64,000 nucleotides of DNA from Betaproteobacteria bacterium. GTDB lineage: Bacteria; Pseudomonadota; Gammaproteobacteria; Burkholderiales; Gallionellaceae. The notes under the pieces were generated by a model. The model saw nothing but the letters and a program-made list of their open reading frames with translations. It was not told the DNA's origin and searched no databases. The position numbers and the translations under genes were made by a program. Of this stretch, positions 1 through 20,379 are shown piece by piece. Where the stretch lies: positions 1-64,000 of the forward strand of contig JAIOPT010000011.1 in assembly GCA_021413765.1 (NCBI GenBank), given 5' to 3'. The stretch's first letter is position 1; each line of letters begins with the position of its first letter.

Positions 1-1001
<1,001 letters not shown>

Positions 1002-1041
1002 CTATTCGAATATTAACGAATATACAAAGCAAGCAGTGGTA

Positions 1042-1758
1042 TTAAGATTGCGCCCAAAATGCCGTGCATACCCATGGCCAGACTAGCGTATAAACCGGCT
1101 TCCGGGTGAACAGCAAAAGCCCTGGAGGTTCCAATACCATGGAGGTTCCAATACCATGTGCAGCCACACCCATTGCAAATCCTCGTTGCCACCAGGCGTT
1201 CATGCCGAGCAGGTTCAAAATAGAACTACCCAATATTGCGCCCAAGATACCAGTGACTACTGCAAATACAGCAGTCAGAGTAGGTGAGGCAGTCAAGCGC
1301 TCTGCAATACCCATCGCAATGGGTGTAGTAACTGATTTAGGATATAGAGCACCAATAATCGTTGTATCCGCTCCCATAAATGTTGCAATTCCGACTGCGC
1401 TTGCTATAGAAATGACTCCACCACATAACAAAGCAACCGTTAAGGGGATGAGTCGCGTTTTTAAAATAGAAAAGCCCTTATATATAGGTACAGCTAATGC
1501 AACAGTTGCAGTACCCAGCAAGAAATGCACGAACTGCGCTCCTTCAAAATATTTTTGATAAGGCATATCCATCAGATATAAAACCAGAGCAATTAAAACC
1601 ACTGCTATTGCAACTGGATTGGCAAAGGGATTGTTATTCGTTCTTTGATAAAGCAGGTTACCTAATTGATAAGCTGCCAGTGTAATTACCAAAGCAAATA
1701 AAGGGCTGCCTGAAAGGTAGACCCAGATGTCTGCAATTTGAGGTTGTTCATGGATCAT
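1042..1758 (-). pseudogene. lrgB: LrgB/CidB-family membrane protein, frameshifted near the C-terminus by a 17-bp tandem duplication (intact frame would end at 1013)
   Basis: LrgB-type sequence (FLLGTATVALAVPIYKG..., GALYPKSVTTPIAMGIAERLTASPTLTAVFAVVTGILGA, GVAAHGIGTS), then a frame change at a duplicated 17-mer. The start is set at MIHEQPQ, overlapping the end of lrgA. Confidence 0.85.
1124..1157. repeat. Perfect 17-bp tandem duplication (ggaggttccaataccat x2)
   Basis: Read directly: 1124-1140 and 1141-1157 are identical. Confidence 0.98.
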
Positions 1759-2098
1759 TAGAATTTGTTCTAGCAAATAATCTCAAAATAACTGCTGTAG
1801 TAGTGATTGTTAAAACAACACTTACAACTAAAGCCGTTATAACGGCTAAAGCATGGGCTTTTAATTGTGGTAAAAATAAAATTACGCCTACAGCCGCAGG
1901 TATAAATAGAAGTCCTAAATGCTGACTAAAGGCATCAGAAATGACAAGAAGTGAAGAATTAGCATGCCCTTTAAGGATTAAAAATACCAATAATAAAATA
2001 AGACCCAATACTGGGCCAGGCAAAATAGGTATAAGGAAGTGAGAAACCAGCTCTCCCAATCCCTGCCATAAAAGAATTTGGACTAATCCGGAAATCAT
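1748..2098 (-). CDS. lrgA: CidA/LrgA family protein
   Basis: 116 aa with four hydrophobic segments; ISGLVQILLWQGLGELVSHFLIPILPGPVLGLILLLVFLIL...LLFIPAAVGVILF is typical of CidA/LrgA. Adjacent to lrgB. Confidence 0.85.
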   Translation of the reverse strand: MISGLVQILLWQGLGELVSHFLIPILPGPVLGLILLLVFLILKGHANSSLLVISDAFSQHLGLLFIPAAVGVILFLPQLKAHALAVITALVVSVVLTITTTAVILRLFARTNSNDP

Positions 2099-2371
2099 GA
2101 TTTCAGTCTAATATTTTTGTGAAATTTCTACCACTATCTGATGACGTGGAATCAAGTTAGAAGTGCAACAGCCAGCGGTTGCTTTATGTAGCGTATTTCC
2201 ACCCCGAAATAAGTTTAGGCTGTAGGAAACATATTTCGAGTGAAAGTGCCTGCTAAGTATGTGCCGCATTTTTAGGAAGGGAAAAACTTAAGGGGTGTGT
2301 AAACGAAGCTGACTTGCCAAAAAATAAGGTAATCATTCTAGCATCACAAAAAAACATGAAGCTAGCCAGAA

Positions 2372-13342: not shown

Positions 13343-15976
13343 TTATTTCTTGGTCGCGGATTTTTTCGGAGCGGCTGCCTTTTTCGGAGCGGCTGCCTTT
13401 TTCGGAGCGGCTGCCTTTTTCGGAGCGGCTGCCTTTTTCGGAGCGGCTGCCTTTTTCGGAGCAGCTGCCTTTTTCGGAGTAACTGCCTTTTTCGGAGCGG
13501 CAGGTTTTTTCTTGGTTGTGGCTTTCTTCAGAGATGGCCCTTTTGCCACACGTTCTGCCAGTAGCGCCAAACCTTCTTGCAATGTAATTTCTTCCGGGGA
13601 TATGTCTTTAGGCAGAGTGGCGTTAACCTTCCCATGTCTTACGTATGGCCCATAGCGACCATTGCAGACCTCCACCGGCTTTTGGTCTTCCGGATGCGCA
13701 CCCAGTTCCCGTAACACAGTATTGGAAGTTCTTGCCTCTGCTAATAATGCTACTGCGCGTTCTAATTGCATGGTGAAAACACTGTCGCCCTTGGGAATGG
13801 ATTTAAATTTTCCATCATGCCCGACATAAGGGCCGAAGCGTCCAATGTTGACGATAATTTTCTTTCCACTTTCCGGGTGGAGTCCCAATTCTTTGGGCAG
13901 TTGCAGCAATTGCGTGGCAGCAGCGAGGTCTGCATTGTCTGGAGGTAATTCCTTTGGCCAGGAAATGCGCTTCGGTTTTGTTTTGGAACCTGCCTCTACT
14001 TCACCGAGTTGTATGTAATAGCCATAAGGACCGCGCAACAATAATACCGGCAGGCCACTGACTGGATCACTCCCCAGCTCCTTGCGCGCTTCCCCGGTAT
14101 CAGCTTCAGCTGTGAGGTTGCGCGTGTAGTCGCACTCCGGGTAGGCTGTGCAGCCAATGAAGTTGCCACGTTTTCCCAAGCGGGTAGCTAAAGGCTTGCC
14201 ACACTTTGGGCAGGCTTCGTCGATTAGTTCTTGTGTTACATCTTTACGCTCGATGTTCTTTTTATCTTGTATAAGCGCAGCGAAGGGATGCCAGAAATCG
14301 TTCAATACCGGTATCCAATCGCGCTTGCCATCGGAAATCTCATCCAACTCATCTTCCATTTGCGCAGTAAATCCGTAATCGACATAGCGCGTAAAATGTT
14401 CGGTGAGGAAACGTATAACAACACGCCCGACGTCGGTTGGCTTGAATCGTTTTTTGTCCAATATTGCATATTCACGAGCTTGTAGCGTGGAAATGATGCT
14501 GGCATAAGTTGAGGGGCGCCCGATGCCATGCTCTTCTAAAGTTTTAACTAAGCTAGCTTCGGAAAATCGCGGTGGCGGCTGGGTAAAATGCTGCTCACCA
14601 TACAGCTTGTCAAGAGGAATGGTCTCTCCCTCTTCCAAGGGTGGCAATTTTTTGTTTTCTTCTTCTTCGCTATCATCCGTGCTTTCTTGATAGACAGCGA
14701 TAAAGCCAGGAAATATGAGGGTTTGGCCGCTGGCACGAAACAGGGTGTCATCCCCACCGAGGCGAATATCAAGGCTGACCGTATCGAAACGCGCGGGAGC
14801 CATCTGACATGCGAGAGTTCGCTTCCAGATCATTTCATAGAGCCGCGCTTGATCAATGGTGAGAAATTCCCGCATGCTCTCCGGGGTGCGAGCAATCGAG
14901 GTTGGCCGTATTGCTTCGTGAGCCTCCTGCGCATTCTTTGCTTTGCTTTTGTAGATAGGTGCAGTTTTAGGCAAATAGTCCGGGGCAAATTGTGCAGCGA
15001 TGTAATTACGTATTTCCTGCAGAGCTTCCTGTGCCAGCGTGACGGAATCGGTACGCATATAACTGATCAGTCCTACAGTTTGACCGCCGATGTCGATGCC
15101 TTCATAAAGCTGTTGGGCGATACGCATCGTGCGGTCAGTGGACATGCCTAGTTTGCGCGCTGCCTCCTGCTGCAGCGTGGAGGTCGTAAATGGAGCTGCG
15201 GCATGACGTTGCTTGGCTTTCTTTTCCACACGCACCACGCGCGGCGGCAATTTGGCCGCACTGATGTTGTCAAAAATTTTTTTGTATTCCATCTCGCTGC
15301 CTATACCCAGTTGCTCAAGTTTTTTCCCTTGATATTGGAATAGTTTGGCGGTAAATGGTTGGCTATTCTTCTGGCTATCGAGATGCACTGTCCAATATTC
15401 CTGCGAGCGAAATGCCTCGATTTCTAATTCTCGTTCCACGATCAGGCGCAGCGCTGGACTCTGCACACGTCCGGCAGAAAGCCCTGGGCGTATTTTGCGC
15501 CATAGCAACGGCGAAAGGTTGAACCCCACCAAGTAATCCAGCGCACGTCGCGCCTGCTGCGCATTGACCAAGGGAATGGAAATTTCACGCGGATGCGCTA
15601 CTGCTTCGCGCACCGCAGACTGGGTGATTTCGTAGAATACTACGCGTTGCATGGATTTATTTTTTAAATTGCGCTTGCTTTTGAGCAGCTCAGCGACATG
15701 CCAGGCAATGGCTTCCCCTTCACGATCCGGGTCAGGTGCCAGATAGATGTGGTCTGCCTGAGCGGCGGCTTTGGCGATGGCGTCTACATGTTTGCTGTTT
15801 CGCGCAATGATTTCATACTGCATGGCAAAATCATGTTCAGTATCGATAGCCCCCGATTTGGGTATCAGGTCGCGTACATGTCCATAGGTCGCCAGTATCT
15901 CAAAATCTTTCCCCAGATATTTTTTCAGGGTGACGGCTTTGGCCGGGGATTCAACGATTAGTAGATTACTCGCCAT
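13343..15976 (-). CDS. topA: DNA topoisomerase I with (AAAPKK)n basic tail
   Basis: NLLIVESPAKAVTLKKYLG; GISYMRTDS-type active site (LISYMRTDSVTLA); zinc-finger CPKCGKPLATRLGKRGNFIGCTAYPECDYTRN. Confidence 0.97.
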   Translation of the reverse strand: MASNLLIVESPAKAVTLKKYLGKDFEILATYGHVRDLIPKSGAIDTEHDFAMQYEIIARNSKHVDAIAKAAAQADHIYLAPDPDREGEAIAWHVAELLKSKRNLKNKSMQRVVFYEITQSAVREAVAHPREISIPLVNAQQARRALDYLVGFNLSPLLWRKIRPGLSAGRVQSPALRLIVERELEIEAFRSQEYWTVHLDSQKNSQPFTAKLFQYQGKKLEQLGIGSEMEYKKIFDNISAAKLPPRVVRVEKKAKQRHAAAPFTTSTLQQEAARKLGMSTDRTMRIAQQLYEGIDIGGQTVGLISYMRTDSVTLAQEALQEIRNYIAAQFAPDYLPKTAPIYKSKAKNAQEAHEAIRPTSIARTPESMREFLTIDQARLYEMIWKRTLACQMAPARFDTVSLDIRLGGDDTLFRASGQTLIFPGFIAVYQESTDDSEEEENKKLPPLEEGETIPLDKLYGEQHFTQPPPRFSEASLVKTLEEHGIGRPSTYASIISTLQAREYAILDKKRFKPTDVGRVVIRFLTEHFTRYVDYGFTAQMEDELDEISDGKRDWIPVLNDFWHPFAALIQDKKNIERKDVTQELIDEACPKCGKPLATRLGKRGNFIGCTAYPECDYTRNLTAEADTGEARKELGSDPVSGLPVLLLRGPYGYYIQLGEVEAGSKTKPKRISWPKELPPDNADLAAATQLLQLPKELGLHPESGKKIIVNIGRFGPYVGHDGKFKSIPKGDSVFTMQLERAVALLAEARTSNTVLRELGAHPEDQKPVEVCNGRYGPYVRHGKVNATLPKDISPEEITLQEGLALLAERVAKGPSLKKATTKKKPAAPKKAVTPKKAAAPKKAAAPKKAAAPKKAAAPKKAAAPKKAAAPKKSATKK
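13365..13490. repeat. 18-bp tandem repeat (ttcggagcggctgccttt), 7 units, encoding the TopA AAAPKK tail
   Basis: First five units identical, units 6-7 variant; read directly. Confidence 0.95.
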
Positions 15977-17685: not shown

Positions 17686-18717
17686 TCAGGGCGTGAGCGC
17701 GCTATCCAACAATTCCACTGGTAGTTGGGTTCGCATCACCAGAGCGTAGGCTACTTTGTCAAAAGTACGGAATACAAATAACAGACCATAGCGCGTATCT
17801 GGCAGAGTAAGTGATTCCCCTTTTTCCTTTGTTACATCTCCCTTGCGATATAGTGCCAGTACATGGCCATTTTCAAGGCCATCACGAAGTCCCTTGTTGA
17901 GGGTTACGATGGAATGTTGGCCTGCTTGAGAAACGCCAGCATAAATAGAAATTACGCGTGCTGCAATTTGACTGTCTGGGACGCGGGGAACATAGCTTCC
18001 GGCAAGCTCATTGGAAGCTTTGATAAGTCGATCTCCCTTGCTAATTTCCTTAAGTGCCTTGACGATCTTAAGCGTGCTGATATCGGCGAATTTTTCGACC
18101 TCTGCATCACCCAAGTAAACCGCCTCGTACCCCAATATTTCCTTGCTATCTGGGTCAAGCAATGTTTTGCCCTGCTGGTAAATTTGCCACTTTTCCCCCT
18201 GGTCTTTGGATAGCCCTTTAACATATGCAATATCACCGCTACCCAGAAGGACGCGTTGCTCATGGGTGCCAACTATAGTTGGTGCGTTAGATAGCCCATG
18301 TTTTTCAATTATGAGCGGCCTGCTGAGGAAAGGTTCGATGGCACTAGCTGAAATACTGGGGATTGCATTATGTTCACTGCCTTGCACATGTACCCCGGGG
18401 GAAAGTTTCACCCTGTCAGATTTGACTGCCTCTTCGGTCTTTTTAATTTTACCTATATGCAGTGTACCGCTTGCACGATCCAAATAGACTACGTCACCGG
18501 GATAAATCCAGTGCGGATTTTTAATGGTGTCTTTGTTTAAGCCCCAAATTTTGGGCCATAGCCATGGATCTTTGAAAAACTTAGTGGAGATGTCCCACAG
18601 CGTATCCCCTTTCACTACAATGTGACTATCTGGTGCATTGTCATGAATTTTAACCGTATCAGCGAAGGCGAAGGTGGGCAATAAGCAGCAAATCAGCGAT
18701 ATAATAATCTTTTGCAT
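17686..18717 (-). CDS. LysM peptidoglycan-binding domain-containing protein
   Basis: Signal peptide; HIVVKGDTLWDISTKFFKDPWLWPKIWGLNKDTIKNPHWIYPGDVVYL. Confidence 0.9.
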   Translation of the reverse strand: MQKIIISLICCLLPTFAFADTVKIHDNAPDSHIVVKGDTLWDISTKFFKDPWLWPKIWGLNKDTIKNPHWIYPGDVVYLDRASGTLHIGKIKKTEEAVKSDRVKLSPGVHVQGSEHNAIPSISASAIEPFLSRPLIIEKHGLSNAPTIVGTHEQRVLLGSGDIAYVKGLSKDQGEKWQIYQQGKTLLDPDSKEILGYEAVYLGDAEVEKFADISTLKIVKALKEISKGDRLIKASNELAGSYVPRVPDSQIAARVISIYAGVSQAGQHSIVTLNKGLRDGLENGHVLALYRKGDVTKEKGESLTLPDTRYGLLFVFRTFDKVAYALVMRTQLPVELLDSALTP

Positions 18718-18841
18718 GGAAACTCCATTTTGCGTGGGAACCCAGTTTTTTAGAAGCCAGGCTGAGAGCGACAAGTATTGCACGACGTTCGTACAATATG
18801 TTCTAAATTCTGCCCCTAGTTATTTAAATTAGCAAGCATAT

Positions 18842-19345
18842 ATGGCAATTTTACAAATATTACAATATCCAGATATACGGCTACATACCGTCGCCGTGCC
18901 AGTGCCTGTAGTAACGGCTGCCACCCGCAACCTTATCTCTGATATGGCCGAAACAATGTATTCTGCGCCGGGAGTAGGTCTGGCTGCGACTCAGATAAAT
19001 GTACATCAACAGATTATTGTGATGGATATTTCTGAGACCCAGGATCAGTTGTTGGTATTCGTTAATCCGGAAATAATTGCCAATAGTGGAGAGAGCATGT
19101 ACGAAGAGGGCTGTTTGTCGGTTCCCGGGGTATATGAAAAAATTCGCCGCGCAGAACATGTCACCGTGCGCGCACTAAATAAGCATGGTGAATCTTTCAC
19201 GCTTGAAGCGGACGGGTTGCTGGCGATCTGTATTCAACATGAGATGGATCATCTTAAGGGAAAGGTGTTTGTTGAATATCTTTCGCAGCTCAAACAATCT
19301 CGTCTCCGAGCCAAGCTTAAAAAGCACCGCCGTGAAACGATGTAG
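18842..19345 (+). CDS. def: Peptide deformylase
   Basis: [27 protein letters not shown] motifs. Confidence 0.97.
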
Positions 19346-19428
19346 ACAACTTGAAAATGTGTTCTTCAAATTACTGCGTTGAGTCATTAATCTTGAATGA
19401 AAGCCATGATTAATTTAAAGGGATCCCG

Positions 19429-20379
19429 ATAATCAACTCTTCTCTAAAGATCATTTTTGCCGGCACGCCAGACTTCGCCGCCACCGCACTAAAGGTGTTG
19501 CTGGCGCAACAATTTTCTGTGGTCGCGGTGTTAACACAGCCCGACAGGCCCGCTGGCCGAGGTATGCGACTCACAGCCAGCCCTGTCAAGCAACTTGCCT
19601 TGGCGAGTAACCTGCCCCTGCTTCAGCCTGCTTCATTAAAATCTGTCGATGTGCAACAAGAGCTTGCTAATTATGCGGCGGATGTAATGGTGGTTGCGGC
19701 TTATGGGCTAATACTGCCATCAGCGCTACTGCAGTTGCCACGTTATGGCTGTCTGAATATTCACGCTTCATTATTACCGCGTTGGCGCGGTGCGGCACCT
19801 ATTCAGCGCGCTATTCTGGCGGGTGACGACAAAACCGGTATCACCATTATGCAAATGGACGCAGGACTTGATACTGGCGATATTTTACTTAAAAAGGACT
19901 GCCCGATCACTGCGCATGACAGCACGCAAACATTGCATGCCAAATTGGCGAAGCTGGGCGCTGAAGCTATCGTCGAGGCACTGTGCTTGCTTGAGCAAGG
20001 GAAATTAAAGTCTGTGCCGCAGAATGCGGTCGAAGCAACTTATGCTGCCAAACTTAGCAAACCAGAAGCGTTAATTGACTGGTCAGAAAGTGCCACACAA
20101 ATAATGCGTGCGGTGCATGCTTACAACCCTTTCCCTATAGCATCTACAATTCTTAACGGGGTGCCAGTCAAAATCTGGCAGGCCAACGTGCGAGACGGGG
20201 CTGAAGGTGTAGCGGGAACTGTACTGGCTATAGAAAAGAACGGCATTATTGTGGCATGCGGTCAAGGAGCGTTATGCCTTGAAGTATTGCAACGCCAGAA
20301 TGCCAAAGCATTACCTGCGGTGCAGTTTATGCAGGGGTTTGCAGTGCACCCAGGCGACCGTTGCACTTCATTCCTTTGA
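19429..20379 (+). CDS. fmt: Methionyl-tRNA formyltransferase (start uncertain: the conserved N-terminus lacks an upstream ATG/GTG/TTG)
   Basis: SLKIIFAGTPDFAATALKVLL...; LNIHASLLPRWRGAAPIQRAIL; ITIMQMDAGLDTGDIL. In-frame stop at 19411. Confidence 0.9.
   Translation: MINSSLKIIFAGTPDFAATALKVLLAQQFSVVAVLTQPDRPAGRGMRLTASPVKQLALASNLPLLQPASLKSVDVQQELANYAADVMVVAAYGLILPSALLQLPRYGCLNIHASLLPRWRGAAPIQRAILAGDDKTGITIMQMDAGLDTGDILLKKDCPITAHDSTQTLHAKLAKLGAEAIVEALCLLEQGKLKSVPQNAVEATYAAKLSKPEALIDWSESATQIMRAVHAYNPFPIASTILNGVPVKIWQANVRDGAEGVAGTVLAIEKNGIIVACGQGALCLEVLQRQNAKALPAVQFMQGFAVHPGDRCTSFL

Follow-up and report, generated by a model that had tools for sequence, protein, structure and literature searches.

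We found that lrgB in a Candidatus Nitrotoga draft genome carries a perfect 17-bp tandem duplication that throws the end of the gene out of frame. We give a probability of roughly 0.77 to the reading that this is a recent natural loss-of-function mutation, produced by slippage or microhomology in a dispensable LrgAB locus that insertion sequences have eroded, and that it represents ordinary pseudogenization. Nitrotoga are nitrite-oxidizing bacteria. The draft genome comprises 2.5 Mb in 172 contigs and is about 86% complete; the window, by which we mean the whole 64,000-nucleotide stretch of DNA that was analyzed, corresponds to its contig C162.

A 17-bp tandem duplication shifts the reading frame of lrgB

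The window encodes LrgA (PF03788) and LrgB (PF04172) domains side by side on the minus strand, which identifies an LrgAB (CidAB) transporter/holin-like operon. As in other members of this family, including the pyruvate transporter PftAB of Bacillus subtilis and LrgAB of Staphylococcus aureus, the two genes form an operon in which lrgA precedes and overlaps lrgB. The lrgA gene (positions 1748 to 2098, minus strand) is an intact open reading frame (ORF) of 116 amino acids with a score of 64.3 bits to the LrgA family, and lrgB scores 212 bits to the LrgB family, both scores exceeding the cut-off. In contrast to these known LrgAB systems, lrgB in the window is frameshifted near its end. A search of solved structures returned no LrgB relative.

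Within lrgB, the segment ggaggttccaataccat occurs twice without a gap, with a first copy at 1124 to 1140 and a second at 1141 to 1157. The initial annotation had described these back-to-back copies, and direct reading, Tandem Repeats Finder, and shuffled sequences bore it out in every detail. Tandem Repeats Finder reported a period of 17 with 2.1 copies and a 100% match across the perfect repeat at 1123 to 1158, and dinucleotide shuffles of the sequence never yielded this pattern (0.00 expected). We did not find the duplication junction in viral contigs. In the single-copy form of the gene, the same 2 bp (CA) flank the 17-bp segment at each end. Slippage and microhomology-mediated duplication usually leave short shared bases of this kind, and we infer that the segment was copied head to tail through replication slippage or microhomology-mediated copying.

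Since 17 is not divisible by 3, the duplication causes a +2 frameshift, and beyond HGIGTS the lrgB ORF no longer follows the LrgB frame. As read in the initial annotation, the minus-strand ORF at 1042 to 1776 ends ...HGIGTSMVLEPPGLLLFTRKPVYTLVWPWVCTAFWAQS, and the original frame runs on to an end at 1013, where we found a TAA stop codon (1013 to 1015). The Pfam LrgB profile matches the ORF over profile positions 1 to 184 of 214 only, and the remainder of the profile (positions 175 to 212) matches a different frame at 1028 to 1141. We refined the 5' end of the gene, as the start homologous to that of the relatives is the ATG at 1758 and not the TTG at 1776. As it stands, lrgB therefore occupies 1042 to 1758 on the minus strand, with 238 codons counted from the ATG common to the relatives and the last 32 residues off the original frame, according to the ORF, Pfam, and alignment. 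Its original 3' end, recognized by Pfam, alignment, and codon comparison, lies at 1013 to 1123 on the same strand, where it is now out of frame and closes with the original TAA. We found no complete LrgB domain with its conserved C-terminal segment in the window gene; the domain is split between frames, and its invariant R, A, and G are gone.

The duplication is derived and recent

The closest lrgB genes are those of Candidatus Nitrotoga sp. 1052 and Nitrotoga sp. CP45, in which the shared lrgAB block is 94% and 93% identical to the window at the DNA level. The DNA alignment shows a single copy of the 17-mer in each relative at the site where the window has two. We found no two-copy allele in the relatives and no further copy of the locus among the 19 genomes of the genus. 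As the single copy is common to both of the relatives that share lrgAB, the duplication is derived in the window lineage. The lrgB gene of sp. 1052 is intact and encodes 242 amino acids; the window gene thus pairs a derived disruption with an intact orthologue in a close relative, as is the case for a pseudogene made by a recent frameshift. It resembles known pseudogenes that arose from short tandem duplications in its exact head-to-tail copy, the microhomology at the ends, the frameshift, and the single copy in relatives, and we found no notable difference from them.

We then compared substitutions on either side of the duplication. Relative to sp. 1052 and CP45, pN/pS was 0.19 to 0.28 for lrgA and for lrgB up to the duplication. 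Read in the original frame past the duplication, the window and CP45 are separated by 8 silent changes and no replacements. Random changes would be silent at 24%, and 8 silent changes of 8 would occur by chance with a probability of about 1e-5. The 3 changes past the duplication that are specific to the window lineage are also all silent (chance, about 0.014). Between the window and sp. 1052, this stretch has 3 silent and 2 replacement changes, and both replacements are specific to sp. 1052. The silent-only changes relative to CP45 indicate that the original frame was under selection until recently. Taken together with the silent lineage-specific changes, they indicate that this frame was preserved through most of the time since the lineage became separate. 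Judged from these sequence comparisons, the duplication is recent. The single copy in both close relatives and the silent-only changes in the old frame relative to CP45 give good support to the earlier proposal of a very fresh inactivating mutation. We dropped the identity of the two copies as a dating argument; it is too weak, since only 0.73 copy-to-copy differences are expected over the whole lineage branch even if the duplication is as old as the split (probability of zero differences, about 0.48).

An assembly error is unlikely

Single-copy relatives and an original frame that looks selected are also what would be seen if the genome were truly single copy, with an intact lrgB, and the duplication were an assembly or consensus error. 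The genome is a draft (172 contigs, about 86% complete), and a distance of about 1.1 kb separates the locus from a contig end that falls within a repeat, both of which lend this explanation some weight. However, the 34-bp array is far shorter than a typical read. In addition, the ten other window genes that we checked match Pfam families in one open frame, and the assembly is thus not frameshift-rich. We also surveyed exact tandem duplications with a period of at least 12 that is not a multiple of 3, covering about 548 kb of this genome and 346 to 377 kb per relative. We found 4 duplications of such frame-breaking length in this genome versus 0 and 1 in the relatives, which are too few to claim an elevated rate. 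None of the other three breaks a gene (one falls within a pyrD-like gene that is intact, and two are apparently intergenic); the one in lrgB is the sole gene-breaking exact tandem duplication in the roughly 548 kb. We consider an error of this kind unlikely and a natural duplication the better account.

Mobile elements have eroded the lrgAB locus

DNA comparison showed that homology to the lrgAB locus of sp. 1052 and CP45 extends from 1003 to 2144 (minus strand) and that the flanks on both sides are unrelated. On one side, positions 1 to 1001 (plus strand) belong to an insertion sequence that is degraded and repeated, carries rve integrase domains, and was identified by ORFs, Pfam, and repeat search; it ends about 12 bp beyond the stop codon of lrgB. 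Other genomic copies of this insertion sequence also stop matching at 1001 to 1004. The contig begins within the element, at a position matching the ends of contigs C8 and C24; mobile elements therefore break this assembly. On the other side, a repeat search identified positions 2145 to 2208 as the end of a repeated element with many occurrences in the genus, which takes the place of the native flank upstream of lrgA.

In sp. 1052, a TetR-family gene lies directly before lrgA, and a bestrophin-like gene, a carbonic anhydrase gene, and a SulP-type transporter gene lie further out. Unlike the LrgAB locus of its Nitrotoga relatives, the window is without the TetR gene. The sole trace of tetR in the window genome is its last 36 codons (residues 191 to 226), a fragment of about 122 bp on contig C1 (locus L136, 10711 to 10902), and this remnant adjoins another copy of the repeat end common to window positions 2140 to 2208. 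Near the remnant on contig C1 are a RuBisCO large-subunit-like ORF and a LysR-like ORF, both named from their translations. We did not find the SulP gene in this incomplete genome with a query that matched four relatives, nor the bestrophin gene with a query that had no positive control. The previous description of the lrgA partner as intact holds for the ORF itself, but the native upstream flank and the neighboring regulator gene have been lost. When the region upstream of lrgA was scanned for promoters, the window and the relative both scored no better than chance. The sp. 1052 cluster (locus L040, 2487 to 8412), in which lrgAB lies beside genes for the SulP-type transporter, a universal-stress-like protein, and carbonic anhydrase and the bestrophin-like gene, could be an inorganic-carbon uptake cluster.

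LrgAB appears dispensable in Nitrotoga

We detected lrgB in 4 of the 19 Nitrotoga genomes, one of these genes being divergent, and detected none in the other 15. In CP45 (locus L041, about 18645 to 19370), lrgB carries an independent nonsense mutation, Q31* (CAA to TAA), and the remainder of the gene is open. Two independent breaks in lrgB and its absence from most of the genus therefore point to a dispensable operon and suggest that the need for LrgAB is relaxed in these nitrite oxidizers. Erosion of the same locus by mobile elements here, alongside the independent break in the sister genome, indicates such a relaxed need. A transporter operon found in a minority of the genus is disappearing through two or more independent mutational routes (a tandem duplication in this genome and a nonsense mutation in CP45) as well as by mobile-element erosion. 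The importance of this gene loss caught in progress is modest and would be greater only if reads revealed a living mixture of alleles.

The initial annotation had offered a reversible on/off switch as an alternative, in which slippage would restore and re-break lrgB at high frequency (phase variation). Perfect tandem direct repeats can collapse, and the original frame downstream of the duplication is still clean. Reversible duplications act as phase variation in S. aureus agrC and sigH (PMC6686034, PMC7911514), and tandem-repeat copy number varies in Mycobacterium tuberculosis promoters (PMC12817950). Like contingency loci that vary in phase by repeat-mediated frameshift, lrgB has a direct repeat, and its frame would be restored if the repeat collapsed. 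In contrast to those loci, it has two copies only, shows no polymorphism among the genomes compared, and lies in a decaying locus. Loss of one copy leaves a normal single-copy gene with nothing to regenerate the duplication at a high rate, and the recurrence of a multicopy form among relatives that would mark a phase-variable locus was not seen. The loss of the flanks and of the neighboring regulator gene, together with the nonsense mutation in the sister genome, is more in keeping with decay than with a switch that is maintained. We found no positive support for such a switch and regard it as improbable. It is very improbable that lrgB serves this lineage as a two-copy/one-copy switch through which a minority of the population would retain functional carboxylate transport.

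The frameshift is predicted to inactivate LrgB

Under the favored reading of pseudogenization, the frameshift would inactivate LrgB and thereby deprive the cell of a working LrgAB carboxylate transporter. Frameshifted LrgB has its conserved C-terminal 36 residues exchanged for 32 unrelated ones, and the ORF stays open, so that the protein is 238 residues long versus 242 in the intact form. The lost tail includes R207, A208, and G216, which are invariant in 16 homologues, and six more columns conserved at 88 to 94%. The new tail is less hydrophobic, with a best 19-residue mean of 0.87 versus 1.84 in the native tail. On these grounds, the duplication probably destroys LrgB function. Microaerobic growth of S. 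aureus on pyruvate depends on lrgA as well as on lrgB (PMC8805020), and the B. subtilis proteins PftA and PftB make up one transporter complex (PMC5626966). Because both partners are needed in these species, the intact lrgA would, by analogy, not rescue the operon. That frameshifted LrgB is instead a functional variant with a new C terminus, as its open ORF of near-equal length and moderately hydrophobic new tail might suggest, is extremely doubtful, since the invariant residues right after HGIGT(S/A) are lost, no stretch of the new tail is as hydrophobic as the native one, and the silent-only changes fall in the old frame.

Other features of the window

In the topoisomerase I gene, an 18-bp in-frame tandem array of about 7.8 copies at the 3' end (13362 to 13501) codes for a repetitive C-terminal tail.

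A second frameshift, in the methionyl-tRNA formyltransferase gene fmt (19420 to 20379, plus strand), was suspected as a sign of poor assembly and was ruled out, as the frame is intact and the start codon alone is unusual. We found no ATG, GTG, or TTG at the expected start. The frame opens with ATA-ATC after an AAGG Shine-Dalgarno-like site, and this arrangement is conserved in 13 Nitrotoga genomes (with ATA-ATT in G005). At the position of the LKIIFAGT motif, TTG or GTG is present in some Nitrotoga and in several other members of the family. It is possible that fmt, a translation-initiation gene, has a conserved noncanonical start codon, for which infC, with its AUU start, provides a comparison.
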